From contig JAGVTS010000128.1 in assembly GCA_019136685.1 (NCBI GenBank), forward strand, positions 1 through 37,996: DNA of 37,996 nt, written 5' to 3'. Of this stretch, positions 5,533-32,813 are shown piece by piece. The stretch's first letter is position 1. Each line of letters opens with the position of its first letter. A program made the position numbers and the translations under genes. Origin of the DNA: Bacillota bacterium. Lineage in GTDB: Bacteria > Bacillota > DTU025. Below the pieces are notes generated by a model that was not told where the DNA came from, made no database searches, and saw only the letters and a program-made list of their open reading frames with translations.

Positions 5533-6195
5533 CTACGATACCTGCATGACCCCTACATCATCAGGTACAGTGAGCGTTGCCTCAGTTGCAGCGATCATAT
5601 CGTCCACAGTCACTCCCGGGGCTAGTTCGCGCAGGACGGGCCCGTCAGGCGTGAATTCTATGACGCCCATATCGGTTACGAGCAGGTCCACTTCCTTGAC
5701 CGCCGTTAGGGGCAGTGTACACTTCTTAAGGACTTTGGACTTCCCGTCTCTCGTCCGATGCTCCATCGCCACGATAACCCGCCTGGCGCCAACCACGAGA
5801 TCCATGGCGCCTCCCATGCCGAATACCCTGCCGGGAGTGGCCCAGTTGGCCAGGTTGCCCTCTTCATCGACTTGCAGGCCTCCAAGAACCGTGGCGTCTA
5901 CGTGCCCGCCACGGATGATGGCAAATGACATGGCCGAGTCGAAGAACGCGCCGCCGGGGTTGATCGACACAGGCTGCCCACCTGCATTCACGACATCCAT
6001 ATCTTCTTCGCCGGACGCCGGCGGATTGCCAAGGCCGACAAAGCCGTTTTCGGACTGAAGGACGATTCGCACATCCTCCGGAAGGTGCTTTGCCACCTGA
6101 GTCGGGAGGCCGATTCCGAGGTTAACCACGTGACCATCCTTTAGTTCCCTGGCCACGCGCTTGACGATCAGCTCGCGAGGATCCAAAGCAGTCAC
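5533..6195 (-). CDS. atoA: 3-oxoacid / acetate-acetoacetate CoA-transferase subunit B
   Basis: Beta subunit of a type I CoA-transferase that moves CoA between acyl-CoA and a short carboxylic acid (acetoacetate, butyrate or similar), activating fatty acids in the cytoplasm. Seen: VNLGIGLPTQVA near the N-terminus, the catalytic-glutamate motif SENG (E about residue 49), and the conserved HVDATVLGGLQVDEEGNLANW and GMGGAMDLVVGA blocks. Length (220) is typical. It is the third gene of the atoE-atoD-atoA unit and starts one base after atoD ends. The exact acyl specificity cannot be read from the sequence. Confidence 0.93.
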   Translation of the reverse strand: MTALDPRELIVKRVARELKDGHVVNLGIGLPTQVAKHLPEDVRIVLQSENGFVGLGNPPASGEEDMDVVNAGGQPVSINPGGAFFDSAMSFAIIRGGHVDATVLGGLQVDEEGNLANWATPGRVFGMGGAMDLVVGARRVIVAMEHRTRDGKSKVLKKCTLPLTAVKEVDLLVTDMGVIEFTPDGPVLRELAPGVTVDDMIAATEATLTVPDDVGVMQVS

Positions 6196-6196
6196 C

Positions 6197-6847
6197 TCAG
6201 TTCACCTCCACTACTGCGTCTACAACGACGCCCGGCGTCATGACTAGGTCCGGATCGATTTCGCCGATGGGCTGGACTTTGGCGGCCTGAGCCACGACGT
6301 GATCAGCTGCCATGGCCATGAGGGGGTTGAAGTTCCGCGCCGACTTTCGGTAGACCAAGTTGCCTGCATGGTCGGCTACGCTCGCGTTGATCAGGGCAAA
6401 ATCGGCTCTGAGGGGAAGCTCGACAAGGTAGACGCGCCCGCCGATTTCCAGCTTCGCCTTTCCTTCCTCAACGATGGTGCCGACGCCTGTGGGCGTTAGT
6501 ATGCCGCCGAGCCCTGAACCGCCTGCCCGGATCCTCTCTGCCAGAGTGCCCTGCGGCACTAGCTCGGCGTCGATGGTCCCCTCGAGTTTCTGCGCGATGG
6601 AAGTAGGATTGAGACCCATGTAGGAGCAAATCACCTTCTTGATCTGCCCGGATGCGAAGAGCTTCCCGTATCCCCGGTCCGGCATCGCGGTGTCGTTCGC
6701 AATCAATGTGAGATTGCCGACTCCACGCCGGACGATCTCATCCACAAGGGCGTCCGGACACCCAGTTGCCAGAAAACCGCCGACCATGATGGTCATTCCG
6801 TCAGTCAGCCCGGCAAGCGCATCGCTAATGGTCTTGAGTTTCGTCAC
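6197..6847 (-). CDS. atoD: 3-oxoacid / acetate-acetoacetate CoA-transferase subunit A
   Basis: Alpha subunit of the same type I CoA-transferase. Seen: MTIMVGGFLATGCPDALVDE (about residues 19-38), the family's glycine-rich CoA-binding start; NLTLIANDTAMPDRGYGKL; the GGILTPTGVGT loop; and the FALINASVADHAGNLVY block. At 216 residues it is full length. It lies between atoE and atoA, 64 bases after atoE, and should form a heteromeric enzyme with atoA. Together with the AtoE-like carrier this makes a module for uptake and activation of short-chain fatty acids or acetoacetate. Confidence 0.93.
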   Translation of the reverse strand: MTKLKTISDALAGLTDGMTIMVGGFLATGCPDALVDEIVRRGVGNLTLIANDTAMPDRGYGKLFASGQIKKVICSYMGLNPTSIAQKLEGTIDAELVPQGTLAERIRAGGSGLGGILTPTGVGTIVEEGKAKLEIGGRVYLVELPLRADFALINASVADHAGNLVYRKSARNFNPLMAMAADHVVAQAAKVQPIGEIDPDLVMTPGVVVDAVVEVN

Positions 6848-6911
6848 GCCGACTCGTCACCTCCGCTGTGTAGTTGGTCATTTGGCTGGTCATGTAGCCA
6901 GTTCAACGGGA

Positions 6912-8267
6912 TCAAGCTATAAGCAGCGCTACTATGCTCAGAACGACTCCGCCCCAGAGGAGAACGAGCGTGGTGTAACCCATGATGTCGCGAGCCTTGA
7001 GGTTGGCCAGGCCCAACAAGGGCAAGGCCCAGAATGGCTGGATCATGTTGGTCCACTGGTCGCCCCATGCGACCATCATCGCTGCTTTGACCGGCTCCTG
7101 GCCTATCATCTGAGACGCCTGAACGGTGATTGAGCCCTGAGCCGCCCACTGCCCGCCGCCGGAGGGGATGAACATGTTTAGCAGGCCGGCCGCCCAGAAC
7201 TGGAGCATGTAGAAGGTGCGCGTGGTCGCCATGGCCACGAACCATCCCGCAATCACAGACGCCAACCCTGTGCCCATCATGAGGCCCTGGATGCCGCCGT
7301 ACAGGGGGAATTGCAGGGCGATGCCCCCTGCGCCCCTTATCGCTTTGTTCACTGCACGAGCGTAGTTGATTGGGCGCTCGTGCAGGATGATCCCGAGGAA
7401 CATGAAGATTCCGATCACTAGGTTGAGGTCAAGTGCGAACCCCTTCTGGATGAAGTAGTTGACCAAGTAGATTGCGCCCATGGCAGCGAAGACGTAGTTT
7501 ATGATGCGCGAATTTTCGATGCGCTGAGCCCATGTGTCCATCTGAACGTTCTTGCGCTCGGCCTCCTCCTGCTTCTCCTCTTCCTCGAGGCGGCCGATGG
7601 CCTCTTTCGACAGAGGCCTGGCCTTGTCGCGGGTGGGGACGGCCATGGCCAGCAGCCCCGCCACGCTTACGATCAGGAACATTGCAGGCCAGATGTTCCA
7701 AGAGGCGAACATCGTTTGAGTTACGGGGATGACCTGCCCGGTCAGCGTCTCGATGTGGTTGGCTGGGTTACCTGCAGTTGCGATAGTCAGAGGGGTGGAG
7801 CCGGATATACCCATGTGCCACGTGAGGAAACCTGCGTACGCTGCGGCGATGAGCAGTGGGTAGTCCACATCCTCCACGCGTTTTGCGATCTCAACTGCAA
7901 GCAGGCCGCCTACAATCAGGCCGAATCCCCACTGCAGCCAGGAGCAGATCCCGGCAACGAGCGCCACCAGGAATACAGCCTTAACCGGAGTGTTGGCTAT
8001 CCGCGCGATGCCGGCAAGCATCCGCTTGACCGGCGGAGCGAGGGCCAGGCTATGACCTGTTACCAGGATGAGAGTCATCTGCATCGCGAACGCGAGTATG
8101 CCCCAGATACCTCCCCACCACGCATTGATTGTTCCCATGAAACCTGCGTCGGTGAAGATGAGAGCCAGGATGAACGAGATGAAGGTCAGGATTATCGCGA
8201 ACAGGTAGGCATCGGGCAGGTACTTCTCCATCACCCTCGTGAAGAACTCGCCCATCTTCCGGATCAT
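6912..8267 (-). CDS. atoE: short-chain fatty acid transporter, AtoE family
   Basis: Integral membrane carrier of the AtoE family, thought to import short-chain fatty acids or acetoacetate. The 451-residue sequence has many hydrophobic helices, family-like blocks such as YLPDAYLFAIILTFISF, LQWGFGLIVGGLLAVE and NMFIPSGGGQWAAQG, and one long charged cytoplasmic loop (EEEEKQEEAERK, about residues 232-243). It is the first gene behind the sigma54-type promoter at 8313-8328, with atoD and atoA following. The ATG at 8267 is preceded by a G-rich stretch (GGGGGTG, plus-strand complement at about 8272-8279) that can serve as SD. Confidence 0.92.
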   Translation of the reverse strand: MIRKMGEFFTRVMEKYLPDAYLFAIILTFISFILALIFTDAGFMGTINAWWGGIWGILAFAMQMTLILVTGHSLALAPPVKRMLAGIARIANTPVKAVFLVALVAGICSWLQWGFGLIVGGLLAVEIAKRVEDVDYPLLIAAAYAGFLTWHMGISGSTPLTIATAGNPANHIETLTGQVIPVTQTMFASWNIWPAMFLIVSVAGLLAMAVPTRDKARPLSKEAIGRLEEEEKQEEAERKNVQMDTWAQRIENSRIINYVFAAMGAIYLVNYFIQKGFALDLNLVIGIFMFLGIILHERPINYARAVNKAIRGAGGIALQFPLYGGIQGLMMGTGLASVIAGWFVAMATTRTFYMLQFWAAGLLNMFIPSGGGQWAAQGSITVQASQMIGQEPVKAAMMVAWGDQWTNMIQPFWALPLLGLANLKARDIMGYTTLVLLWGGVVLSIVALLIA

Positions 8268-8312
8268 GTTAACACCCCCGTCAGATTTAGGTGAAATCCC
8301 AAGATATCAAGT

Positions 8313-8328
8313 AGCAAGACGTGTGCCA
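8313..8328 (-). promoter_or_regulatory. sigma54 (-24/-12) promoter of atoE-atoD-atoA
   Basis: Read on the minus strand the sequence is TGGCACACGTCTTGCT, matching TGGCACG-N4-TTGCW with one difference and the exact spacing. The predicted start of transcription is near 8302, about 35 bases before atoE. A sigma54 activator gene lies just upstream, as expected. Confidence 0.85.
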
Positions 8329-8444
8329 AGGATGTAGCGGGGGGTGTGATAGAGATGTGTTGTGCGCGAGACGCGTCCTAAGCAGCGATTTGGGGGTGGT
8401 GTGGTGAGATTGCGTTCGATTCTCCGAGGAGATGCTGCGAAATG

Positions 8445-8500
8445 AACTGCGCACTTTCACATTTAGGTGTGCAAGCGAGTTCGCAGTTGGCAGTGACTGC
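8445..8500. promoter_or_regulatory. candidate activator-binding region upstream of the ato promoter
   Basis: This 250-base gap between the activator gene and atoE holds several inverted repeats 115-190 bases upstream of the sigma54 promoter: AACTGCG (8445-8451) with CGCAGTT (8482-8488), and the palindrome GCAGTGACTGC (8490-8500). This is a usual place for enhancer sites of sigma54 activators. Which repeat is bound, if any, is inference. Confidence 0.4.
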
Positions 8501-8517
8501 AGTGGCGCAGACTGCGA

Positions 8518-9903
8518 CTACAGCCCGTAACGCTTAATCTTGAGTTGTAGTGATCGTCGGGAAATGCCGAGGTACTCGGCAGCCCGGGTGCGGTTTCCGT
8601 CGAAGATGCGGAGAGCCTCAACTATTCGCCTCTTTTCGGTCTCGGTGAATGCCCGCCGCCTCGATTCCTTCAGAGAAATCGGCGCTTTGAGCGGATCATC
8701 GCCGGCGACTCGGGCGAGCTCTGAGGGCTCTGCCAGGAGAATCCAGTCAGGCAGGCTGTGGGGCTCTACAACACTATCATCGCATAGCAGGGCCAAGTGC
8801 TGCATGGCGTTTTTCAGCTCGCGAACGTTTCCCGGCCAGTCATAGGCTAGGAGAGCATCGGTCGTACTGTCGCTCAGCGATGGCGACTGTCGGCCTAAAT
8901 CGGAACAGAACTCCTGCAGGAAGTGGCTTGCAAGTACTAGGATGTCTTCCTTCCTCTCACGAAGCGGTGGAATTGACACTGTGATCACGGCCAGTCGGAA
9001 GTAGAGGTCTTGTCGGAACCTGCCTTCGTTGACTTCCCGCCGGAGATCCCTGTTGCTGGCTGCTACTATCCGGACATCCACCGGGATCCTTCGGGTACCG
9101 CCCAACCGCTCGATGACCTTCTCTTCTGCGGCCCTGAGGATTTTGGGTTGCATGGCTAGGGGGAGGTCGCCCACTTCGTCTAGGAGGATGGTGCCTCCAT
9201 CCGCGATCTCGAACCTGCCGGGCTTGCGCTTGCGGGCGCCGGAAAATGCTCCTTCATCATATCCGAACAACTCACTCTCAAGAAGGCTCTCCGGAAGGGC
9301 GGCGCAGTTCACGGGCACGAAGGGCTTGTTCTTCCGCGGCGAGCTGTAATGTATGGCCCTGGCCATGAGCTCTTTTCCGGTCCCGCTTTCACCCTGCACC
9401 AGCACAGATGCGTCACTTGTAGATACCCTTTCCACCATTGCGAATATCCTGAGCATCTCGGGCGAGACGGTGATCATGTCGCGAAGGTGGACTACGTCGT
9501 CAAGGACTCGGCTGGAGTGACGCGTCTTACCTGCCTCCCCGGATAGCCGGAGCGACGACTCGATAGTCAGTCTGAGCTCGTCCATGTCGAAAGGCTTAGT
9601 GACGTAGTCGTGCGCTCCGAGTTTCATGGCCGCTACCGCTGTTTTGATTTCGCCGAAGGCGGTCATGACGATAACTGGCCCGCTGAAACCGTGCTTTCGG
9701 GCGGCCCGGAGGGTATCGATGCCGTCTGCGCCCGGCAGGCGCAGATCCAGCATGATCAGGTCTATGTCCAGGCAACGGAGGAGTTCGAGAGCCTGCTCGC
9801 CGGAGGAGGCCGCTACGATCTCGTAGTCGCCTGCGAATGCCTGGCTGAAAAGCCACGCCATGTTGGGCTCATCGTCCACAACGAGTATTCTTTCAGGATC
9901 CAA
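8518..9903 (-). CDS. atoC: sigma54-dependent response regulator, AtoC-like
   Basis: NtrC-family activator: phosphorylated receiver, AAA+ ATPase that remodels sigma54 RNA polymerase, and DNA-binding domain. Seen: receiver with acidic DDE (10-12) and phospho-acceptor D53 in LIMLDLRLPG, K in TKPF; Walker A GESGTGKE (171-178); sigma54-contact loop reading GAFSGA (218-223) rather than GAFTGA; Walker B ILLDEVG; C-terminal Fis-type helix-turn-helix NRTRAAEYLGISRRSLQLKI. It overlaps the upstream kinase gene by 11 bases, so the two are translationally coupled. The sigma54 promoter and ato genes lie directly downstream, which makes it the likely activator of fatty-acid uptake. The symbol is by context and similarity of domain order. 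Confidence 0.9.
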   Translation of the reverse strand: MDPERILVVDDEPNMAWLFSQAFAGDYEIVAASSGEQALELLRCLDIDLIMLDLRLPGADGIDTLRAARKHGFSGPVIVMTAFGEIKTAVAAMKLGAHDYVTKPFDMDELRLTIESSLRLSGEAGKTRHSSRVLDDVVHLRDMITVSPEMLRIFAMVERVSTSDASVLVQGESGTGKELMARAIHYSSPRKNKPFVPVNCAALPESLLESELFGYDEGAFSGARKRKPGRFEIADGGTILLDEVGDLPLAMQPKILRAAEEKVIERLGGTRRIPVDVRIVAASNRDLRREVNEGRFRQDLYFRLAVITVSIPPLRERKEDILVLASHFLQEFCSDLGRQSPSLSDSTTDALLAYDWPGNVRELKNAMQHLALLCDDSVVEPHSLPDWILLAEPSELARVAGDDPLKAPISLKESRRRAFTETEKRRIVEALRIFDGNRTRAAEYLGISRRSLQLKIKRYGL

Positions 9904-11677
9904 CGCCGCTCACCTCAGCCTGGCTAATCACCGGAAGCCTGACGATAAACGTAGTGCCCCTTCCTGTTTCCGATTCGAATTCCACGAATCCTTGGTGGTT
10001 GTAGACTATGCGCTGGACCAGGGGCAACCCAAGCCCTGTGCCGCTCACCTTTGTGGTGAAGAACATTTCGAATACGTGGTCGCGTAGCTCGGGAGCGATT
10101 CCTATGCCTGTGTCGGCGACGGCGATCTGCACGTAGCGAGCGCCCGGCCTCCACTTCACCGCTACTCGGAGCGTGCCGCCTGCCGGCATGGCCTGAATCC
10201 CGTTGAGCAGCAGATTGAGCATGGCCTGTGTGAGGTGGTCGTTGTCGCCGCAGAGCGCGGGCACATGGGCGGGGCATGTGAACTTGACGCTCACGCCCAT
10301 CTCCCTGCCATACTCCGAAATGAGATTGCAGGCGTTTTCGGCTATGCGACGGATGTCGGTGGAAACCATATGTGGCTGTGAGTATCGAGAGAACCTCAGC
10401 AGAGACTCGACCGTGCCATTGATTCTGTCCATCTCCGCCGTGGCGACCTGCGAGAATTGCTCGAGGAACTCTCGGTCATCCAGTCGCCGTGGGACTAGGC
10501 TGACGGCGCCCTTCAGAACGGCCAGGGGGTTCCTGATCTCGTGAGCCACGGCTGCGGCCAGTTCGCCCACTGCCGCAAGGCGCTCGGCTCGCTCAAGCCT
10601 TTCCTCGTGGGCCTGTGCCTCCTTGAGGTCTTCCAGTATTACGATATGGCCGAATCGGTTGCCGTTGTGGTTGCCGCTGCGATCGCCCAATCCCGCTGGC
10701 GCGGCCATAGGCCATTCGGCTCGTGTCGACACCATGGTTATGGGTCGTTCTCCTTCATGGGTCTTGATCGTGACGTTCACGAATCGATTGAGAGATCCGT
10801 CGGCGAATTCGTTCAGCGCAGTGTCGGGATCTATGCCCATACACTGCAGAACGCTGCGGATGTCGCGCGACACGAAGGATGCGGACGTCTCGCCCAGGAT
10901 GTCCTGTATGCCCTTGGACACGAAGGTTATCCGGCCATCGGCGTCGGACAGTATGACTGCGAGGCTGAGCGTGTTGAGAAACAGCTCGAGATAGCATTTG
11001 AGCTGTTCCACCCTGTGCGCCATCCGAGAGTCGGCGGAATGTGAGTCGATCGCTGACGAACTGCTGCCTGAGCGTGATTTGCCGAGCAGAAGGACCTTGG
11101 ATGCAAACAGGAGTATTCCTGTGAGACCCAGCAGAGGCTCGATCTCAGGGGAGAAGAACAGCTTGCCGGCGCCCACCTGGATCTGGGCGTAGATGTCTTC
11201 CAGAGCCTCGTTCGCCCACACGAACCCGACTGCCCTGCCTTGCCGGATCAGCGGGCGCATGCAGTTCATGATCTCGCCCCGCACCATGGATCCGACTGCG
11301 ACCGTCTCCTTGCCGGTGGCCATGGCCTGCCATCCGAGGTGATCAAGGCCCAAATCCGTGCCCACTTTCGAAGCGAAATCGCGACTGGGGCCGTAAGTAA
11401 GAATGGCGCGAAGGGCGCGTGAGTAGTAACCCACGCCAACGCCGGGGAAGGCAGCAGCGAGTTGGTCGGTGAACGGCGCCAGGCGTTCATTTAGGATGCG
11501 TATCCTTTCGGATTCGGGTGCAAGTGCTGCTTTCGGCCCGCCCACCGACAGCAACACATCATCGTAGTCGCCCTCAAGGTGCAAGTCGAGCAGCCGCGTG
11601 AGCCCAAACAGCTTGCTGCTCTTCTCCTCGATAAGCGCCGCCTCGGCCTTTTGGAAAAGGAGGTATCGCGATTTCAA
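9893..11677 (-). CDS. sensor histidine kinase partnering the AtoC-like regulator
   Basis: Probable sensor for the ato system. Order seen: an N-terminal sensing region (to about residue 190) with GVGVGYYSRALRAILTYGPS and GEIMNCMRPLIRQGRAVGFV, like a Cache-type ligand domain; one hydrophobic segment (LLGLTGILLFASKVLLLG, about 193-210); a PAS domain (VILSDADGRITFVSKGIQDIL); HisKA with H in VAHEIRNPLA (about 378); and an HATPase with DTGIGI and GTGLGLPLV. The TTG start at 11677 is chosen because GGAGAGGAGG lies 8 bases upstream on the minus strand; the frame stays open to 11818 but would overlap mcrB. No N-terminal membrane helix is visible, so how the sensing region is placed is unclear. Confidence 0.88.
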   Translation of the reverse strand: MKSRYLLFQKAEAALIEEKSSKLFGLTRLLDLHLEGDYDDVLLSVGGPKAALAPESERIRILNERLAPFTDQLAAAFPGVGVGYYSRALRAILTYGPSRDFASKVGTDLGLDHLGWQAMATGKETVAVGSMVRGEIMNCMRPLIRQGRAVGFVWANEALEDIYAQIQVGAGKLFFSPEIEPLLGLTGILLFASKVLLLGKSRSGSSSSAIDSHSADSRMAHRVEQLKCYLELFLNTLSLAVILSDADGRITFVSKGIQDILGETSASFVSRDIRSVLQCMGIDPDTALNEFADGSLNRFVNVTIKTHEGERPITMVSTRAEWPMAAPAGLGDRSGNHNGNRFGHIVILEDLKEAQAHEERLERAERLAAVGELAAAVAHEIRNPLAVLKGAVSLVPRRLDDREFLEQFSQVATAEMDRINGTVESLLRFSRYSQPHMVSTDIRRIAENACNLISEYGREMGVSVKFTCPAHVPALCGDNDHLTQAMLNLLLNGIQAMPAGGTLRVAVKWRPGARYVQIAVADTGIGIAPELRDHVFEMFFTTKVSGTGLGLPLVQRIVYNHQGFVEFESETGRGTTFIVRLPVISQAEVSGVGS

Positions 11678-11703
11678 GGTGTTTCCCTCCTCTCCGCCAT
11701 ACA

Positions 11704-13155
11704 ATGCCTCCATATGCAGCAATGTTCTACGGAATGCCGAGGAGTCCTGCCCCTGAAGGTGGCGCAAAGCCCCTTCTGGAAACTCTGTTTGGTGGGCGCT
11801 ACCACCAACGTTTCTCAAGTCAGGCAGCTATCCGTGATCCCCTGAGTCCAAATGTCGACGTTCCGTTTGCCGGCTTTATCCACCCCGACAACCCGACTTC
11901 CGGTGCCTATGGCGGTGCTAGCCTCATCTGGTTCCCCACTGATGGCAGTGGATCCATAATCACATTCGTTGTAGGCACAGCCGGCCTTTCACCAGACGAA
12001 GGCCTCTTGAGTCGCCCCGGCCACCGTCGGAGAGTGCGAGCCCTTCGCCACTACCTTGCCCAAGAGGGAGTGTGGGCGTGGGCCAAGCCGGATCCAACAG
12101 CTCTGGGGATCAGCATACCCGGTTTTGTGAGCCGCCGTCTGCCCGACTTCAGGAAGGCCCTGAGGAGGTATGGCGACGAGATCTACGCCATTGCAGAGGT
12201 CCCGGTCGATGATCCCAGGAGGGCTCGCCTTGTCACTCAGGCGTTCTTCGATCTGTATGCGTTTGAGCGGGGATGGATTGCTCTCAAGGAATGCGAACGG
12301 GAGCACCTCATGCTTATTGATGCTCTCCGGTCCGACTTGTTCGTGCGTGTCGAGGAAGGTGAGGTGTATCGACTGCTCCGCGAACGCCGCTTCGTGATCC
12401 TTGAGGGACCTCCGGGCACTGGTAAGACTCGTATGGCCGAGCGCATCAAGCGTGACTACTTCGGCGGTCACGGGGTCACCATTCAGTTCCACCCGGCGGT
12501 TACTTACGAAGACTTCATCATCGGCCTTTCGCCGGGTACCAGCGACAGGTCGCTGCACTTTGGCGTGCGGTCTGGTTGGCTCGTAGAAGCGGCAATATCG
12601 GCTCAAGAGAGACCTTTCCTACTGGTCATCGACGAAATCAACCGAGCCGATCTCGGCAAGATCCTTGGCGAAGCCATCTGCCTTTTCGAGCCGGGCGAGG
12701 AGACGCAGCGCACTGTGGAACTACCATACGCAGTGAACGGGAAGACCTCCTTCGCGTTGCCTCCGGAACTGTATGTTCTGGGTACGATGAACACCGCCGA
12801 CCGATCTATTGCCCCCGTGGATCTAGCGATCCGGCGCCGTTTCGCCTTTGTCACCCTGCCTCCCGACCTGGAGGCCATCAGAGATAACAGTGTCGATATA
12901 GGCGTCAGGGTTTTCGCTGCGCTACAGGATGCATTCACTGAGCATGCTCCTGACGATGCACTGGATCTGCTTCCGGGCCAGAGCTTCTTTCTGGCCAAGA
13001 CCGCCGAAGAGCTGCAGCGACGCTTTCGTTACGAACTGCTCCCGCTGCTTGATGAGTATCTGCGCGAGGGGCTTGTGGCCTCGTTCGGTGCAGAGCTTCA
13101 GGCCGTTCGCGATCAGATTGAAGGGTTCGTTCATCATGGCGTATGGACTGACTAG
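11704..13155 (+). CDS. mcrB: McrB-type GTPase subunit of a modification-dependent restriction system
   Basis: AAA+ motor of a type IV McrBC restriction enzyme, which cuts foreign DNA carrying modified cytosine using GTP. Seen: Walker A LEGPPGTGKTRMAERI (about residues 234-249), Walker B FLLVIDEINRADLGKI with the McrB-typical DEINR, and the McrB signature LGTMNTADRSIAPVDLAIRRRFAFV (sensor with NTAD). The N-terminal 200 residues (GFIHPDNPTSGAYGG, then WFPTDGSGSIITFVVGT) look like a target-recognition domain but I cannot name its family. The start is uncertain: in-frame ATGs at 11704, 11722 and 11734 all lack an SD, while an in-frame ATT at 11671 has AAGGAGGT 6 bases upstream. It overlaps mcrC by 20 bases. 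Confidence 0.9.
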   Translation: MPPYAAMFYGMPRSPAPEGGAKPLLETLFGGRYHQRFSSQAAIRDPLSPNVDVPFAGFIHPDNPTSGAYGGASLIWFPTDGSGSIITFVVGTAGLSPDEGLLSRPGHRRRVRALRHYLAQEGVWAWAKPDPTALGISIPGFVSRRLPDFRKALRRYGDEIYAIAEVPVDDPRRARLVTQAFFDLYAFERGWIALKECEREHLMLIDALRSDLFVRVEEGEVYRLLRERRFVILEGPPGTGKTRMAERIKRDYFGGHGVTIQFHPAVTYEDFIIGLSPGTSDRSLHFGVRSGWLVEAAISAQERPFLLVIDEINRADLGKILGEAICLFEPGEETQRTVELPYAVNGKTSFALPPELYVLGTMNTADRSIAPVDLAIRRRFAFVTLPPDLEAIRDNSVDIGVRVFAALQDAFTEHAPDDALDLLPGQSFFLAKTAEELQRRFRYELLPLLDEYLREGLVASFGAELQAVRDQIEGFVHHGVWTD

Positions 13156-14521
13156 GCAGACGGCGCCTAGGCAATTACCTCTGTATACGGCGGTTGACAA
13201 CGGTCCGCCCGTTACGCTCTCGCCACAGCACTTCGCTCCATCGCGGCGTGGTGGCGGATGGGGATCCTCTGCGGACTCGTTTTTTCGTTTCAACGAGGAG
13301 GCCTTGTCTGCTCTTGACGTGACAGCTGAGGCCCGGTCAGATTCGTCCGGCTTCGCCATCCAGCTTCGACCGGGAGGGCGGACTGGTGCCGTTCCCCTTC
13401 GCTCCGGGCAGACTGGCCAGGTTGCGGGCGGTGTGGTAGTCCAGCCTCGGTTTGGATGGCCAGGGGTGGGACGAGTGTTGGTGGAGACGGGTTGGCCGGC
13501 ACTGCCTCAGTTCCATGCTCTGCCGATGGTTCCTGGAAGCGGCCGAGAGGTACCGCCGTGGGTGTTGGCAGGGCCAGTTCTGTTGCGCCTGGAGGCTCTG
13601 ATGAACCAGATGCGCCGGGGATATCAGGAGCGTGAAGAGACCATGGCTCGGCCCCGAGGACGCATTCTCTGGCACCGCTACATCAGCGAATCGTTGACCA
13701 GAGGTCGTTGGGAGCAATTGCCCTGCCGCTTCCCTGACCTAACACATGACCCGCTGCTGCTCCGGCATATCCGTTGGGCTACGGAGAGAATACACACAGA
13801 TCTGATCCGCGTCGGACGAACCGACCTTGTAGCCGCGAGCCTTGCCCAACTGGCGCGGCGACTGCTTGTCATTCTGTGTGGGATTGCACCCGCACGCCCT
13901 CGCTTACCCGACTTGGCCCGATGGGCAAATGCGGGCCTGCTTAACGATGTCGTACGCGCAGGATTGGAAGCCCTGGCTTGGGTTGAAGAAGAGCGAGGGC
14001 TGGGTGGCGGCCGTGAGCTTGACGGAATCGCCTGGTCACTCTCGCTGAGCCAATTGTGGGAAGCCTACGTTGAAGGCGTCGTCCGGCGGGAAGCAGGCTT
14101 GACGGGCGCCGAGGTAAGGGCGGCTCGTCTGGGTGAGACTACGATTCCGCTCGCCTGGTCCGATCCGATGCATCGTTCGCTAGGGCATCTGGCCCCGGAC
14201 ATTATCGTGCGCCGTGGCCGTTTGGTTCACATTGTAGACGCCAAATACAAGGCTCACCTGGCCGAGCTCGACTCTGTGGGTTGGCGCCGCTTTGCAGAGG
14301 AAACCCGTTCGACACACCGAGCCGATCTCCATCAGGTGCTGGCCTATGCGTCGCTCTATGAGGCAGAGGAGATCACGGCTACCTTGGTCTACCCCCTGCA
14401 ATATGAGACATGGGTCACTCTGAAAAAGCAACAGCGTGACCGAGCCACCGCGGAGTTGGTTCATGGAGGCAGGCGGGTGGTACTGGAGTTGCGTGGGCTA
14501 CCCTTCGGATTGAGAGCATAG
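13136..14521 (+). CDS. mcrC: McrC-type nuclease subunit
   Basis: Partner of McrB that carries the endonuclease of the modification-dependent restriction complex. Seen: a C-terminal PD-(D/E)XK active site, LAPDIIVRRGRLVHIVDAKYK (D of PDI about residue 353, D-A-K about 367-369), followed by RADLHQVLAYASLY with the conserved DLHQ helix. The ATG at 13136 starts at the family-like MAYGLTRQT and overlaps the mcrB end by 20 bases, indicating translational coupling. The frame is open further upstream to 12929, but that part is antisense-quality sequence inside mcrB. 461 residues is within the range for McrC relatives. Confidence 0.88.
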   Translation: MAYGLTRQTAPRQLPLYTAVDNGPPVTLSPQHFAPSRRGGGWGSSADSFFRFNEEALSALDVTAEARSDSSGFAIQLRPGGRTGAVPLRSGQTGQVAGGVVVQPRFGWPGVGRVLVETGWPALPQFHALPMVPGSGREVPPWVLAGPVLLRLEALMNQMRRGYQEREETMARPRGRILWHRYISESLTRGRWEQLPCRFPDLTHDPLLLRHIRWATERIHTDLIRVGRTDLVAASLAQLARRLLVILCGIAPARPRLPDLARWANAGLLNDVVRAGLEALAWVEEERGLGGGRELDGIAWSLSLSQLWEAYVEGVVRREAGLTGAEVRAARLGETTIPLAWSDPMHRSLGHLAPDIIVRRGRLVHIVDAKYKAHLAELDSVGWRRFAEETRSTHRADLHQVLAYASLYEAEEITATLVYPLQYETWVTLKKQQRDRATAELVHGGRRVVLELRGLPFGLRA

Positions 14522-17638: not shown

Positions 17639-17672
17639 TGTGTCGGGGAGGGCGCGAAAGGATGATGGACTC

Positions 17673-18041
17673 ATGATGGCCACACCCTGCAACAGGTACA
17701 TGGAGATGCAGGTCCAGACTGCGCCTGCTGAGAACCTGGTGCTTATGTTGTACGACGGAGCTCTTCGGTTCGCTCGCCAGGCGCAGGTCGACTTGACGGA
17801 GGGCAGGATGCAGGATGCCCACAACGACCTCACCAGGGCACAGGACATCCTAGGCGAGCTGATGAGTTCTTTGAACATGGACGCAGGCGACATCGCCCAG
17901 AACCTGTTCAAGCTCTACGAGTTTATTCAGTACCGGCTGATAGTAGCCAACGTCAGGGCAGTGAGTTGGGCCGAAATGGAGATGAAGCTCAGCTGCGCGG
18001 ACTCGCGGAGCATATCCACAGGTGCCGAGCGGATGAGCTAG
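17673..18041 (+). CDS. fliS: flagellar export chaperone FliS, with atypical C-terminus
   Basis: FliS binds flagellin in the cytoplasm and keeps it from polymerising before export. Seen: the family start YMEMQVQTAPAENLVLMLYDGALRF, then QDAHNDLTRAQDILGELMSSLN and LYEFIQYRLIVANV, all good matches. After this the usual final helices (a ...LLxELRxAW-type ending) are missing and the protein ends with an unrelated 30-residue tail (CADSRSISTGAERMS). ATG 17673 or 17676 is the start, with AAAGGA about 10 bases upstream; the frame is open from 17640. The tail region overlaps the next gene by 76 bases in another frame, so a frame change near 17955-17985 is possible. Confidence 0.88.
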   Translation: MMATPCNRYMEMQVQTAPAENLVLMLYDGALRFARQAQVDLTEGRMQDAHNDLTRAQDILGELMSSLNMDAGDIAQNLFKLYEFIQYRLIVANVRAVSWAEMEMKLSCADSRSISTGAERMS

Positions 18042-18490
18042 AATACTACCGCAGCATTCTTGACCTTTCACGTGCTCAGCGAAATGCGATCGTGGAAGGC
18101 GACACCGACTCTCTTGCTCAGGCGACCGACGAGAAGGGCCGCCTGATCTCGCTGATAGACGCGATTGACCTCAGGATAGCCTGCCTGTTGGACGAGGTCT
18201 CCTATATCGCCGGCGCTCGTTCGCATGCGTGTATCTACGCTGACGCCGCCGCGACTGCGGTCACTGCCGCGACTCCGATAGGGGGATGTGCCCTTAATGC
18301 CAGGATAGCTGGTGTGATGGCAGAAATCCTGGAGGCTGAGCGCGCCAATCAGGAGCTACTGGAGCAGGCGATAGGAGGTGTGCACGAGGAGCTGAAACAG
18401 ATTGACGCGGGTAGTAAAGCCGTTCGGGCCTACTGGGGCCGGGGCGGCGAGACGCCACAGCCGGCATCGGCCATCGACGATAATGCATAG
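17966..18490 (+). CDS. flgN: FlgN-like flagellar export chaperone
   Basis: FlgN-type proteins are small helical chaperones for the hook-filament junction proteins. Seen: helical, charged ELEYYRSILDLSRAQRNAIVEGD, then SLAQATDEKGRLISLIDAID (about residues 26-70), which follows the FlgN pattern (LLxLxxxQRxAIxxGDxxxLxxLxxxKxxLI), and a helical C-terminal half. The only usable start is TTG 17966, with a weak AGGG upstream, lying 76 bases inside fliS. The sequence before residue 10 looks arbitrary, so the true N-terminus may have been altered. It ends one base before the stop codon of the convergent regulator gene. Confidence 0.65.
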   Translation: MGRNGDEAQLRGLAEHIHRCRADELEYYRSILDLSRAQRNAIVEGDTDSLAQATDEKGRLISLIDAIDLRIACLLDEVSYIAGARSHACIYADAAATAVTAATPIGGCALNARIAGVMAEILEAERANQELLEQAIGGVHEELKQIDAGSKAVRAYWGRGGETPQPASAIDDNA

Positions 18491-26278: not shown

Positions 26279-26339
26279 CGCAGGATTTGTCGCGCCAAGG
26301 TCATGATCGGTTGCGGACATGAATTGGGAAGGAAAACCG

Positions 26340-27908
26340 GTGATACATGACGAAGTGTGGTCCGAAATGACAGATTCGGGGGACAATGTATTGACTATTA
26401 CTGGTGTAAGCGATGGCGCGCCGTGTCGCGGGCATGTGCTGATTGTTGATGACGAGGTCAACATGCAGCTGGTGTTGTCGGAGGCCTTTGAAGATGAGGG
26501 CCACAGTGTAAGCACTGCTTCGAATGGAGCAGAGGCCATCGCTGCCATTCAGGCCTCAGATTTCGATCTGCTCATACTAGACCTCAAGCTTCCTGACATG
26601 ACAGGCATCGACCTGTTCAGGGTGGCCCAGGAGATGCGGCCGGGCGCGGTGGCGATAATGATAACGGCGTATTCGTCCATCGATACGGCCATCGAAGCCA
26701 TGAAGATGGGCGCGTACGACTACATAACCAAGCCGTTCAATGTAGAGAAACTGCTGATGGTGGCGGGCAACGCTATCGAGGGGAGGATTCTGTCGGGGCC
26801 CCGATTGACGCACTGCGCCGAGCTGACGATGGAGGACGAGGAGTTCGGGGGAGTTGTGGGCTCATCGCTCAAGATGCGGCAACTTCTCGACATTTGCCGC
26901 AGTATTGCGCCGACTAACGCGACAGTTCTGATATATGGCGAAAGCGGCACAGGCAAGGAGCTTGTGGCGAGCTACATACACAAGAAGAGTCTTCGATCGA
27001 GCAAGCCCTTCATCAGGGTGAACTGCGCCGCCATACCTGAGACCTTGCTTGAGTCGGAGTTGTTCGGGCACGAGAAGGGAGCGTTCACGCACGCCATATC
27101 GCGCCGCATGGGCCGGTTCGAGCTGGCGCACACGGGCACGGTATTCCTGGATGAAGTGGGCGAGATGTCCTCCGCCATGCAGGCCAAGCTGCTCCGGGTG
27201 TTGCAGGAGAAGGAATTTGAGCGCGTCGGCGGGGTTGACACTATCAAGGTGGATGTGCGCGTGGTGGCGGCCACCAACCAAAACCTCAAGCAGGCGGTGG
27301 CCGAAGGAGCTTTCCGCGAAGACCTCTACTACAGGCTATCGGTGGTCCCGCTGTTTTTGCCGCCTTTGCGCGAACGAAAGCAGGATATCCCCGCTTTGGC
27401 GTCTCGGTTCATCCACAAGTACAATGAGGAGTTCGGCAGGAGTGTGTCGGGCATTACCCATGAAGCCCTGGAGCACCTCGCCTCGTACAATTGGCCCGGC
27501 AACATCAGGGAGCTAGAGAACGCTGTGGAGCGGGCCGTGCTTTTGGCGCGCGGCGATGGGCTGACTTCGGCCGATTTCCATCTTGGGGCTGATCCTGTAC
27601 AGGTCATCTCGTTCGGGCTAGGTTCGCAGCGCTTTGCCGATGCGGAAGCGGGCGATGCGGACGATACCGACGATATTGACGTTTCGGGAGACTCGCTCGA
27701 TTCGGACAGCGATGATGAGGAATGCGCCACTGATATTCTTGGCGATGTGTGGGTTCAGGAGGACGGCCCGATGTCGCTGGAGGAACTAGAACGCCGCTAC
27801 ATCGGGCAGGTCCTGGAGCAGTGTGGGGATAACCGGACCCATGCGGCAAGAATTCTGAGAATTACCCGGCGAACGTTGCTCAACAAGATAAAGAAGTACG
27901 GCCTCTGA
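26340..27908 (+). CDS. sigma54-type response regulator with GAFTHA loop
   Basis: NtrC-family two-component regulator. Numbering from the upstream in-frame ATG at 26319: receiver with D44-D45 and phospho-acceptor D88 (LLILDLKLPD); Walker A GESGTGKE (207-214); contact loop GAFTHA (254-259), where His replaces the second Gly of GAFTGA; Walker B VFLDEVG; FREDLYYRLSVVPL; a 30-residue Asp/Glu-rich linker (about 445-475); C-terminal Fis-like helix-turn-helix NRTHAARILRITRRTLLNKI. GTG 26340 is preferred as start because GGGAAGGA (26326-26333) is 6 bases upstream; ATG 26319 has none. It is followed by the split kinase and then the flagellar operon, and is divergent from the sugar operon. Confidence 0.9.
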   Translation: MIHDEVWSEMTDSGDNVLTITGVSDGAPCRGHVLIVDDEVNMQLVLSEAFEDEGHSVSTASNGAEAIAAIQASDFDLLILDLKLPDMTGIDLFRVAQEMRPGAVAIMITAYSSIDTAIEAMKMGAYDYITKPFNVEKLLMVAGNAIEGRILSGPRLTHCAELTMEDEEFGGVVGSSLKMRQLLDICRSIAPTNATVLIYGESGTGKELVASYIHKKSLRSSKPFIRVNCAAIPETLLESELFGHEKGAFTHAISRRMGRFELAHTGTVFLDEVGEMSSAMQAKLLRVLQEKEFERVGGVDTIKVDVRVVAATNQNLKQAVAEGAFREDLYYRLSVVPLFLPPLRERKQDIPALASRFIHKYNEEFGRSVSGITHEALEHLASYNWPGNIRELENAVERAVLLARGDGLTSADFHLGADPVQVISFGLGSQRFADAEAGDADDTDDIDVSGDSLDSDSDDEECATDILGDVWVQEDGPMSLEELERRYIGQVLEQCGDNRTHAARILRITRRTLLNKIKKYGL

Positions 27909-27934: not shown

Positions 27935-28981
27935 ATGAGAGATGTTCAGGCGAGGCTCTGGGCGCCTGCCGCGGCAGTCGTGGCGATTGCCGCGGTGCGG
28001 CTAGTGTGTTCGTGGAAGTCGGCGGCTGTCCACAACTGGTGGACGATGGCAGGCGACGCGTTGCTGCTTGCAGGTGTTGCAGTGCTATCGGCTTACTACG
28101 TCACCATCATACTTCGCCGAACGCGGGAGGCCGGAATCGCTGCCGACAGGGTGAGTCGGCTTGAGATGGTCACCAGGGAACTTGTGGACCATGAGGCCAT
28201 GATCCGCGACGACCTAGTGCGAGGGCAGCGGGAGCTGAACGAGCGTATCGTCAGGCTGTCCGGCATACTTGACGCTTCCCGCGATCTGGTGGCGACGCGG
28301 GATTTCCGTGAAGTGTTGGAGCGCATAACCGACATGGCCAGGAGCGTTGTAGGCGCCGACTGGGCCTCTCTCACAGCGGACGCATCTTTGGCGGGTGCAG
28401 TCACAGGTGACGATGAGACGGTAGTCATCACGGCGGGCGCCACGGAAGGGGCGTCTTCGCTATTTCAGCTATCCACGCCCATCGTATGCCTCGGACAGGT
28501 TACAGGCCAGCTCACAGCGCATTTCAGCGCTGTTCGTCCGGGCGCGTCCGAAGTCACGCATCTTCTTGCCATCATCTCTTCCTTTGCGGGTGTAGCCATG
28601 GAAAACGCCCGTCTTTACCATGATCTGAGCAGTGCCAACTTAAGGCTTGAGGCGGCACGACGATATGCTGAAGGGCTGATCGAGGAGGTCCCGGTGGGAA
28701 TAGTCGTCCTCGATCGCGACTACCACGTCATGACCTGGAATCGGGTGCTTTCGGAGACCTTGAGGATGCCTGAGGAGGAGGTGCTTGGCAGGCGTCTCGC
28801 GGACCTAGTGGGGATGAATGAGGATGGGCTGGTCCAGATACTGGCTGAAGCAGCCGAGGACGCGCGCTCCATGTCTCCCCGCAATGCCGTGCTGTGTGAT
28901 GCTGGGGGCGGTCGGCACATAATGCGCCTTGTCGTCTCGCAAGTGGAGTCGCTGGTTGGGGGGGGGAAGAAGGCCTCATAG
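27935..28981 (+). CDS. sensor kinase N-terminal half: membrane helices, GAF and PAS, ended by a frame change
   Basis: First part of what should be one histidine kinase. Seen: two hydrophobic segments (LWAPAAAVVAIAAVRLV and LLLAGVAVLSAYYVTIIL, within residues 8-60), a coiled segment, a GAF domain (LDASRDLVATRDFREVLERI to AIISSFAGVAMENARLYHDL), and a PAS domain (VPVGIVVLDRDYHVMTWNRVL). The frame stops at 28979-28981, just after nine G (28958-28966). With ten G the frame would continue as GGGEEGLIVMAEDVTER straight into the HisKA half, the normal PAS-to-kinase joint. So the gene is frameshifted, phase-variable, or miscalled here. It begins 26 bases after the regulator gene and should be its partner. 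Confidence 0.8.
   Translation: MRDVQARLWAPAAAVVAIAAVRLVCSWKSAAVHNWWTMAGDALLLAGVAVLSAYYVTIILRRTREAGIAADRVSRLEMVTRELVDHEAMIRDDLVRGQRELNERIVRLSGILDASRDLVATRDFREVLERITDMARSVVGADWASLTADASLAGAVTGDDETVVITAGATEGASSLFQLSTPIVCLGQVTGQLTAHFSAVRPGASEVTHLLAIISSFAGVAMENARLYHDLSSANLRLEAARRYAEGLIEEVPVGIVVLDRDYHVMTWNRVLSETLRMPEEEVLGRRLADLVGMNEDGLVQILAEAAEDARSMSPRNAVLCDAGGGRHIMRLVVSQVESLVGGGKKAS
28958..28966 (+). repeat. run of nine G inside the kinase gene
   Basis: Nine consecutive G between GGTT and AAGAAGG, at the point where the kinase frame breaks. Ten (or seven) G would restore a single open frame. Poly-G runs of this length slip readily in replication and are known switches in other bacteria. Confidence 0.95.
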
Positions 28982-28983
28982 TC

Positions 28984-29739
28984 ATGGCCGAGGACGTCAC
29001 TGAGCGAGTTCGTTTGGGCGAGCAACTCAAGCAAGCGGAGCGCCTCCGGACGCTCGGCGAGTTCGCTGCGGGCATGGTCCATGAGATCAACAACCCTATT
29101 GGGATCATTTCCGCGTGCGCTGAGGTCCTGGGCCGGAAACTTGCGCGTCATGGCGACGAGTTCCACGAGTATGCGAAAACCGCCAAGATCATCGAGGATG
29201 AGGCGATCCGGTGTTCATCCATTGTGAGGAACCTTCTGAGCTTCGCGCGCGAGGCAGAGATGAACCCGGGTGAGGTGAACGTGGCAGGATTGCTGAGGCG
29301 GACCTCCGAGTTCATCAGGGGCAAGGCTTCTGAGCTCGGGGTTGAGCTGATTCTCGACATATCCGACAACATCCCGGCCATCATCGGCGACCGGGATCAG
29401 CTGGAGCAGGTCTTCTTGAACCTTGCCGTGAACGGGATCGAGGCTATGGAGGGAGGCGGCAGGTTGCATGTGTCCGCCGCGCGGAAGGCTAACGAGGTGA
29501 GGGTCTCATTTGCCGATACGGGCCCGGGGATTCCGACTCAGGATATACCGCGCGTATTCAACCCGTTCTACACTACCAAGCCGTCAGGCACCGGTCTGGG
29601 CCTGGCTCTCAGCTGGAGCATTATCGAGAGGCACGGGGGCGCCATTGAAGTAGACAACGTGTCGGATGATGGGGGCGCCAGGTTTGACGTGATCCTACCC
29701 CTGCAGTGGCACACCGGGCGAGAACAGACTACCCGGTAG
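28984..29739 (+). CDS. sensor kinase C-terminal half: HisKA and HATPase
   Basis: Catalytic part of the kinase begun at 27935. Seen: PAS-end/linker MAEDVTERVRLGEQLKQAERL, dimerisation and phospho-acceptor segment FAAGMVHEINNPIG (His about residue 33), N-box LEQVFLNLAVNGIEAM, G1 DTGPGI and G2 GTGLGLALS. In the given sequence it can be translated separately: ATG 28984 follows the upstream stop by 2 bases and GGGGAAGAAGG is upstream. That would give a soluble kinase fragment without its sensing domains. A terminator follows, then the flagellar sigma54 promoter. Confidence 0.85.
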   Translation: MAEDVTERVRLGEQLKQAERLRTLGEFAAGMVHEINNPIGIISACAEVLGRKLARHGDEFHEYAKTAKIIEDEAIRCSSIVRNLLSFAREAEMNPGEVNVAGLLRRTSEFIRGKASELGVELILDISDNIPAIIGDRDQLEQVFLNLAVNGIEAMEGGGRLHVSAARKANEVRVSFADTGPGIPTQDIPRVFNPFYTTKPSGTGLGLALSWSIIERHGGAIEVDNVSDDGGARFDVILPLQWHTGREQTTR

Positions 29740-29873: not shown

Positions 29874-29889
29874 TGGCACCGATATTGCA
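29874..29889 (+). promoter_or_regulatory. sigma54 (-24/-12) promoter of the flgB-fliK operon
   Basis: TGGCACCGATATTGCA: TGGCAC at 29874-29879 and TTGCA at 29885-29889, the consensus spacing with at most one deviation. Predicted start of transcription near 29900, about 30 bases before flgB. It sits directly after a strong terminator, which argues that it is used. Confidence 0.88.
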
Positions 29890-29930: not shown

Positions 29931-30374
29931 ATGTGCGAGTTGAAGATCCTCGACGATCGCACGATGAGAACCCTTGAAATCGCGTTGGATGTAGCGTCTG
30001 CGCGTCACCAAGTGATAGCCGGCAACGTGGCTAACGTCAACACCCCGGGGTTCAAGGCGGCGGATGTGGACTTCGTGAGCAGTCTGGAGCAGGCCATGGC
30101 GGGGCGTGGGGATCCAACGGGCCACAGAGGGCTTACGAGCCGGGCGACGAGGGCGGGCCACTTCGCCATTTCGGGCCCTGCGACCGCCGGGCAGTCGCCG
30201 ATTGTACGGACTATGGACGAGGGCGTATCGATGAAAGTAGACGGTAACAGCGTCGATATCGATCTCGAAATGGCCAAGATGGCTGAGAACGAGACGATGT
30301 ACAACACATTCGCGCAATTGGTATCGAATAAGTTTAGCATTCTGAAATACGTGATCAGCGAGGGGAGGCGGTAG
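29931..30374 (+). CDS. flgB: flagellar proximal rod protein FlgB
   Basis: Rod protein of the flagellar basal body, exported through the flagellar secretion system. Seen: ALDVASARHQVIAGNVANVNTPGFKAADVDF (residues about 18-48), the rod-protein N-terminal motif, and the C-terminal VDIDLEMAKMAENETMYNTFAQLVSNKF. 147 residues is normal. Start ambiguous: ATG 29931 lies almost on top of GAAGGGAGA, while TTG 29940 (MKILDDRTM) has better SD spacing. First gene of the sigma54 operon. Confidence 0.93.
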   Translation: MCELKILDDRTMRTLEIALDVASARHQVIAGNVANVNTPGFKAADVDFVSSLEQAMAGRGDPTGHRGLTSRATRAGHFAISGPATAGQSPIVRTMDEGVSMKVDGNSVDIDLEMAKMAENETMYNTFAQLVSNKFSILKYVISEGRR

Positions 30375-30377
30375 CCC

Positions 30378-30773
30378 GTGTCCGTGATATCCACATTCAG
30401 CATCAGCGCATCGGGGATGGCGGCGGAGAGACTGCGCCTTGACACGATATCAAGCAACCTGGCCAACATCAACACAACGCGCACCCCTGAAGGCGGGCCC
30501 TACCGGCGACTGATGACGGTGATGGAGTCGGCGCTTGATGGACGTGGCGTGCGTGTTGCGCGCATAGCTCAGGATGAGTCGCCGCCGCTTGTGGTACACA
30601 ACCCGGGTCACCCTGACGCCGATGCCGACGGCAATGTGGCGATGCCCAACGTCAACCCGGTGCTGGAGATGGTGGACATGATCAGCGCAAGTAGGGCTTA
30701 TGAGGCCAACGTAGCGGCGTTTAACGCAGCCAAGGCCATGGCGGTCAAGGCGCTGGAGATAGGTAAGGCATAG
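30378..30773 (+). CDS. flgC: flagellar proximal rod protein FlgC
   Basis: Second proximal rod protein. Seen: the rod N-terminus FSISASGMAAERLRLDTISSNLANINTTRTPEGGPYRR and the C-terminal PNVNPVLEMVDMISASRAYEANVAAFNAAK. 131 residues, slightly short for FlgC but complete at both ends. GTG start at 30378, three bases after flgB, with GGGGAGGCGG upstream. Confidence 0.94.
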   Translation: MSVISTFSISASGMAAERLRLDTISSNLANINTTRTPEGGPYRRLMTVMESALDGRGVRVARIAQDESPPLVVHNPGHPDADADGNVAMPNVNPVLEMVDMISASRAYEANVAAFNAAKAMAVKALEIGKA

Positions 30774-31135: not shown

Positions 31136-32813
31136 ATGACACTGCCTTTACCTCAAGTAGGCGAACAGGCGGGCGCTGCCGCACAGACCCGCACTGGGCG
31201 GGCCGGCCGGGGAAACCGCGCGGAAGGCGGCGGATCATCTGGCGAGCCCGGGGGATCTGGCAGGCCCGGAGGAACTGGCGACCGCGGTGGGTCGGGCGGC
31301 CGAGGAGGGTCCGGCGACCGAGGCGATCGCGGAGGGCTGACCACCACGCAGAAGATCATCATCGGCGCGGTGGCCGGTGGGGTTCTCATTGCCCTCATCC
31401 TGCTCATGATCTCCAGTTCTACCAGCGACTTCGCCGTTCTCTATTCCGGCCTGCCGCCGGAGGACGCCGGCAGGATCGTCGAGTACCTGAAGGAGAGCGG
31501 TGTCAAGTACAAGCTGTCGTCGGGCGGCAGTACAGTCATGGCGCCGTCGGATCGCGTGTACGAATTGCGCATGGAGCTTGCGAGCAAAGGTGTGCCGCAG
31601 GGCGCTCCAAGGCGAACTGGCGCGAACGATCATGGCGCTCAATCCTGTTGAGCTTGCGCGAGTGCACATCGTCATCCCCGAGGAGAGGCTCTTCTCGGAA
31701 CAGCAAAAACCCACAACGGCATCGATCGTTCTCAAGCTGAAGCCGGGCGCCTACATCCTTGACGCGCAGGTGCGTGGGGTGGTCAACTTGGCGGCCAGCG
31801 CTGTACAAGGTTTGTCGCCGGAGTTTATCACTGTTGTAGATACTGATGGCAACATGCTGTGGCGAGGCGGCGGCGGTAGCCTGGCTCAGGGACCTTCAAC
31901 GGGCGCCTTGACCACGGCGCAGCTCGAGGCGAAGATGTCATTTGAGCAGGAGATGCAGCGGCGTGTGGAGACCATGCTCGACCGGGCGCTCGGCATCGGC
32001 AAGGCCGTGGTCAGGGTCTACGCCGACATCAACTTCGACTCCACCGAGCGGGCCAGCGAGATCTACCAGCCGGTTGCGGGCGGACTCGGTATTCCCATCG
32101 CCGAGCAGACCACCGAGGAACAGCGGCGTTCGGATGGTCCCGTAGCGTCAGGGGTGGCCGGCACTCCGACTAACGTCGAAGGCTATCCGGTTGTCACTGG
32201 AGCGGCGGGAGGCAAGTCCGACTACGTTCGCACGGATCGCACCATAAACTACGAGGTGTCGAAGGTAGTTGAGAAGGCCGTGATCGCACCAGGGAAGGTC
32301 GAGAGGATATCGGTAGCCGCCGTAGTGGACGGGATGCTCGCGCAGGACAGGCAGGAGTCCATTAGGCAGGTCATCGGCGCTGCAGTGGGCATACGTCCCG
32401 AACGCGGCGATGAGATCGCCGTCACCGGTATGGAGTTCGCTCGCTCAGCCGGCGATGTGGACATGGCCTCGGCGGAAGCGGACCTGGCCAAGACAGACAG
32501 GCGTTCGTTCATAATGCGCCTGGTCAAGATTATTACCCCAATCATACTGGGGTTCTTGATACTCATTTTCGCCCTCTCATTCCTGCGCTTTCTTCGCAGC
32601 CGGCCAGACTACGCGCCTGAGCTAGCCGTGGGCCGAAGAGTGGACGAAGTGCTGGCGCAAGAGCTGCCTCCGCCTGCGCTTTCAGCAGAGCAACAGAAGG
32701 CTCGCGCCGAGGACAAGCGCAGGTTGGAGGTGCGGCAGAGCGTGGAGACTCTTGCACGCTCCAAACCGGCAGACGCGGCCAAGATCCTGGAGACGTGGAT
32801 GGCGGAGGAGTAG
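31136..32813 (+). pseudogene. fliF: flagellar MS-ring protein FliF, disrupted by an internal deletion and frameshift
   Basis: FliF builds the membrane MS ring. The N-terminal frame (31136-31651) has a Gly/Arg/Asp-rich leader, membrane helix IIIGAVAGGVLIALILLM, and ring domain SDFAVLYSGLPPEDAGRIVEYL up to LASKGVPQG (about 31605). The C-terminal frame resumes at once (about 31603) as ALQGELARTIMALNPVELARVHIVIP and runs to 32813, with ring domains, a second helix (ITPIILGFLILIFALSFL) and the FliG-binding end PADAAKILETWMAEE. Between the two, the conserved stretch of about 25 residues normally found here (a GFEIFDKT...TDF...NYQR-like segment) is absent and the frame shifts. The 171-residue product would be nonfunctional. 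True deletion or assembly error cannot be told apart. Confidence 0.85.

Follow-up and report, generated by a model that had tools for sequence, protein, structure and literature searches.

The stretch of DNA analysed here (the window; 37,996 nucleotides) is the entire contig C213 of a draft genome of a Bacillota bacterium (G000; 254 contigs, 2.89 Mb). Within it, a response regulator gene is followed by two consecutive reading frames which encode the sensor and catalytic parts of a kinase, by a sigma54 promoter core and by the flagellar genes flgB and flgC. Two further flagellar genes, fliF downstream and fliS upstream, are damaged. The coordinates are collected in Table 1, where G001 is Firmicutes bacterium UBA5389, a member of the Bacillota from the same genus as the window genome.

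Table 1. The kinase locus and the damaged flagellar genes, with positions in the window.
Feature	Position	Strand	Evidence
fliS, 3' end lost	17640..18041	+	Comparison with G001; FliS profile positions 2-91 of 115 only
Sigma54-dependent response regulator (receiver, AAA+, Fis-type HTH), intact	26319..27908	+	Pfam; syntenic in G001
Kinase sensor part (ORF1): two predicted membrane helices, GAF-like fold, PAS minus last strand	27935..28981	+	ORF; Pfam PAS_4/PAS; hydropathy; G001 ortholog model
G9 run, frame-change site	28958..28966	+	Direct reading; tblastn with intact ortholog; homolog spacing
Kinase core (ORF2), HisKA-HATPase_c	28984..29739	+	ORF; Pfam; identity to G001
Perfect sigma54 promoter core TGGCAC-N5-TTGCA	29874..29889	+	Scan; 42 bp upstream of flgB
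flgB	29931..30374	+	TIGR01396, 1.8e-29
flgC	30378..30773	+	TIGR01395, 1.1e-46
fliF, broken	31136..32813	+	tblastn and DNA alignment with G001; TIGR00206 split over two frames

Perfect matches to the sigma54 core are expected 0.0 times per window. G001, G002, G007 and G008 carry the same element, with no mismatch or one, in the interval that separates the kinase gene from flgB-flgC; with the window genome included, the core ahead of flgB is perfect in three genomes (G000, G001 and G008) and has one mismatch in two (G002 and G007), and the promoter arrangement is conserved in these five Bacillota genomes. The window genome also encodes RpoN (434 bits, over its cut-off) and FlhF (over its cut-off), the latter adjoined by a gene for a MinD/FlhG-like ATPase. 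The original prediction had placed a kinase and its sigma54 regulator beside a sigma54 flagellar promoter; this was confirmed, and is strengthened by the same arrangement in relatives. It is this module that is the solid finding: a kinase, a sigma54 response regulator, and then a perfect or near-perfect sigma54 promoter before flgB-flgC.

Several other loci in the window were noted. Between 18492 and 26099, sugar ABC transporter genes, with a pair of related periplasmic binding proteins, are accompanied by a HAMP sensor kinase and a further sigma54 regulator; this sugar-transport block sits inside the flagellar cluster here and is absent from this place in G001. A short-chain fatty acid transporter and a CoA-transferase pair at 5533-11818 adjoin a kinase and a sigma54 regulator in an AtoSC-like arrangement, with a perfect sigma54 promoter at 8313 (- strand) and a one-mismatch promoter at the same place in G001 (C82:71322). 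Overlapping genes for an AAA_5 ATPase and a McrBC component at 11704-14521 form a McrBC-like restriction pair, which is conserved in G001.

ORF1 of the kinase gene encodes 348 amino acids with a PAS domain and stops at a TAG at 28979-28981, while ORF2 encodes 251 amino acids with HisKA (1.5e-11) and HATPase_c (3.6e-25) matches in Pfam and is 82% identical to the G001 kinase core. Its best NCBIfam match is AtoS (2.5e-62, 211 bits), far under the curated cut-off of 646 bits. Two N-terminal helices are hydrophobic enough for membrane segments, judging from hydropathy and the model of the G001 kinase. The original prediction had called ORF1 a GAF-PAS frame; the PAS domain stands; for a GAF domain, Pfam gives no hit in the window protein and a weak one in a single ortholog, and such a domain is consistent with the predicted fold. 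No second copy of the kinase was found.

The assembly has exactly nine G at the frame-change site, as read directly from the sequence. When the intact G001 kinase was used as a tblastn query, its residues 2-341 aligned in frame 2 of the window and residues 341-605 in frame 1, with the switch placed at 28960; since one intact protein aligns to both frames in succession, both frames are one gene in origin. The claim that a nine-G tract separates two frames of a single kinase was thus borne out by the intact relatives. ORF1 ends ...VESLVGGGKKAS and ORF2 begins MAEDVTERVRLGEQ; the window sequence with one G added reads ...GGGEEGLIVMAEDVTER, and the corresponding joint in G001 is VESLVGNDEGFIIMAEDVTER. 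Tract lengths of seven or ten G are in frame, and eight and nine are out of frame. The break had been described as a PAS-kinase joint, which it is not: the PAS domain itself is interrupted, at the turn that leads into its final strand. The PAS_4 match in ORF1 covers profile positions 2-87 of 110, against 2-110 in G001, and in the model of the G001 kinase (mean pLDDT 70.5, a moderate value) the joint falls at the turn linking the two final strands of PAS (325-336 and 343-351).

Orthologs of the kinase were sought by protein searches in 101 and then 399 genomes, with one genome per species. They were found at the level of genus, family and order (G001, G002, G003, G007 and G008) and in two more distant genomes (G050 and G091). 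The same-genus ortholog is intact at 605 amino acids, and the family and order orthologs (G002, G003, G007 and G008), three complete genes and one contig-end fragment, are uninterrupted. No G tract was found in any of the seven orthologs, all of which are open across the joint. The original prediction had named relatives with no tract and a fixed intact frame as the outcome that would refute a contingency switch, and this is what the comparison of related genomes returned. The spacing from the preceding strand to the motif EDVT is 16 residues in 11 of 14 homologs and longer in only three distant ones; in the window protein it would be 16 residues with seven G and 17 with ten. On these residue counts the conserved equivalent of the tract is seven G, ten being only the nearest in-frame length. 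The claim that ten G rejoins the frames therefore holds in so far as one added G restores an open reading frame, but ten adds one residue to the conserved spacing.

It does not appear that the tract belongs to a wider set of such loci. G runs of at least nine number four in the genome, where Markov models (orders 4 to 1) predict 6-37; there is thus no enrichment, and the tract does not exceed chance expectation. Nine is also the greatest length that a G run reaches here. Each of the remaining three G9 runs is either intergenic or part of a degraded permease remnant, and the reading frame is kept across the G8 runs of ispDF, purN and a carboxyltransferase gene in this assembly, on which grounds a genome-wide contingency system was rejected. 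The in-frame G8 runs of conserved genes also argue that single-base homopolymer error is not rife in the assembly. MutS1 is intact and scores over its cut-off. G runs of 23-30 bases occur at G002:C26:1-30, a contig end, and at G001:C99:90957-90979; these are probably sequencing artefacts of those drafts.

Two flagellar genes of the window carry larger lesions. In fliF, the essential MS-ring gene, 80 bp are absent relative to G001 near 31604, at a short GGGC microhomology, and the frame changes; a search of the genome's own assembly found no second copy. In fliS a gap of 111 bp against the G001 sequence, near 17957, removes the C-terminal quarter. A FliT/FlgN-like gene begins just past this gap (17640-18490 region). 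Of the 98 G001 genes that could be matched to the compared G000 DNA, only the kinase, fliF and fliS were judged broken; other flags were contig ends, spurious antisense frames and the variable middle of flgE, and about 95 other genes are unbroken, the comparison as a whole spanning roughly 33,000 aligned residues. The two kinase halves have dN/dS values of 0.20 and 0.11 against G001 and no further stops, which indicates normal constraint and a recent break. Taken together, the kinase and fliF halves range from 0.09 to 0.20, and this ordinary constraint likewise points to recent lesions. The flagellar genes of contig C181 (flhA, flhB, fliM, motAB, flgE and others) look intact; with main export, motor and hook genes preserved, general flagellar decay was rejected, and the claim is confined to a loss that is local or recent. 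Since the fliF and fliS gaps lie at short G-rich microhomologies they could be assembly joins, which would void the argument from flagellar damage. Either the population has lost flagellar function or the contig has local assembly faults; both weaken the reading of the tract as a switch.

The explanation we favour, at a probability a little short of even, is a lesion, namely a frameshift that arose recently in a single population, as opposed to a switch that has evolved and is conserved, because the relatives are tract-free, G runs are not enriched, MutS is present, and fliF and fliS are broken while about 95 genes are not. A consensus error at this single tract is possible and would count against it. 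Such an error, of homopolymer consensus or assembly, would mean that the true tract is ten (or seven) G and the kinase intact; it stands next in our ranking, and we regard it as unlikely while giving it some weight. It is consistent with a fragmented draft, with the open joint of every ortholog, with two further odd gaps on the same contig and with a tract at the longest run length of the genome. Against it, no other single-base frame error was seen in about 95 genes compared with G001, the conserved genes bearing G8 runs are in frame, and a real length of ten would lengthen by one residue the spacing that 11 homologs share, while a real length of seven would require an error of two bases.

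A species-specific contingency locus would slip reversibly between an off state of nine G and an on state of ten or seven, so that the sensor is disconnected from the kinase or rejoined to it and flagellar expression varies; this reading ranks below the consensus error and is improbable. At the tract itself there is a homopolymer whose change in length would switch frame, as at a phase-variable locus; its length is among those prone to mutate, a single added G would turn nine into ten, and both kinase halves are otherwise uncorrupted. Two supporting signs of phase variation, a tract kept in relatives and a genomic excess of long tracts, are absent. The claim of a switch finds no support, in view of the seven tract-free, open orthologs, the lack of G-run enrichment with MutS1 intact, and the two larger neighbouring lesions, which slippage could not reverse; the broken fliF would be expected to block flagella in whichever state the kinase is found. 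It is very doubtful that, in this species, slippage of the G run in the PAS turn detaches the sensor from the kinase core, so that cells alternate between flagellar expression with and without gating by the sensor while stop-restart translation continues to supply the core. Last in the ranking of the main readings, and more improbable than the contingency locus, is a split or recoded kinase, in which transcriptional slippage, -1 ribosomal frameshifting or a TAG/ATG stop-restart (28979-28986) would yield a working enzyme. The ATG of ORF2 at 28984 is two bases past the ORF1 stop, with a partial ribosome-binding-like AAGAAGG upstream, and translational restart is therefore possible; G GGG GGG is slippery in the direction needed, as read from the sequence. 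However, the relatives encode one uninterrupted protein, and the split falls inside the PAS fold and leaves ORF1 without its last strand. Programmed -1 frameshifting was rejected since the folding downstream of the tract is unremarkable (z = 0.54) and the relatives use one frame.

Precedents exist for frame changes of this kind, and by analogy with bvgS, swrA and flgS/flgR the idea of a switch is reasonable. The poly-C tract of bvgS in Bordetella pertussis occurs as C6 and C7 alleles in strains and mixed cultures; as here, a G/C homopolymer lies within a sensor-kinase gene and a change in its length truncates the kinase (PMC1891110), but the present case comprises one assembly and a tract absent in relatives. 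The poly-A tract of swrA in Bacillus subtilis switches at about 1e-4 to 1e-5 (PMC2831843). It too is a homopolymer frameshift in a member of the Bacillota, in a gene which raises flagellar operon expression (PMC2831843; PMC3874003); unlike the present tract, it consists of A, lies close to the 5' end of the gene for a small regulator and has switching rates that were measured. In C. jejuni both flgS and flgR are phase variable (PMC3930126).

For the module as a whole, the closest parallels are FlgSR (Campylobacter/Helicobacter), FlrBC and FleSR (Vibrio/Pseudomonas), the systems by which Gram-negative polar flagellates turn on their sigma54 rod and hook genes (PMC7064773; PMC3930126). An adjacent kinase and sigma54 response regulator, a sigma54 promoter before rod genes, and co-occurrence with rpoN and with FlhF/FlhG are common to them and to the window genome, a likeness to FlgSR and FlrBC which we take as one of arrangement only and not of orthology. 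Their kinases are mostly cytoplasmic and without membrane segments, a usual and not universal trait, whereas the Bacillota kinase has a PAS domain and two predicted N-terminal membrane helices. Kinases of the AtoS and ZraS type are the best NCBIfam matches of the core; they differ in that the match is far below the curated cut-off and the genomic partner here is flagellar.

Under the favoured reading of a recent lesion, a membrane-anchored PAS kinase and a sigma54-type regulator most likely activate the rod/basal-body operon flgB-flgC-fliE, much as FlgSR, FlrBC and FleSR do elsewhere; it is the gene arrangement from which this activation is deduced. In the one sequenced population, the G run in the PAS turn would have slipped out of frame, to nine G as opposed to the relatives' length of seven. 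The products would be a membrane-bound sensor that lacks the final strand of PAS and, given a translational restart at the ORF2 ATG, a free kinase core. The kinase break would then be a recent, local loss-of-function lesion, alongside those of fliF and fliS.

Were the switch real, an uncultured lineage of Bacillota would possess a contingency locus within a sensor-kinase gene, for which support is limited to a single assembly. The case also advises caution: relatives should be consulted before a frame change at a homopolymer is named phase variation. The conserved module is more useful than the switch. In a recent survey, sigma54 promoters were motility-enriched in other phyla, and for the Bacillota only individual organisms with predicted promoters were named (PMC12316311); the module suggests that a Bacillota order runs its flagellar operon by the FlgSR/FlrBC logic of Gram-negative polar flagellates.
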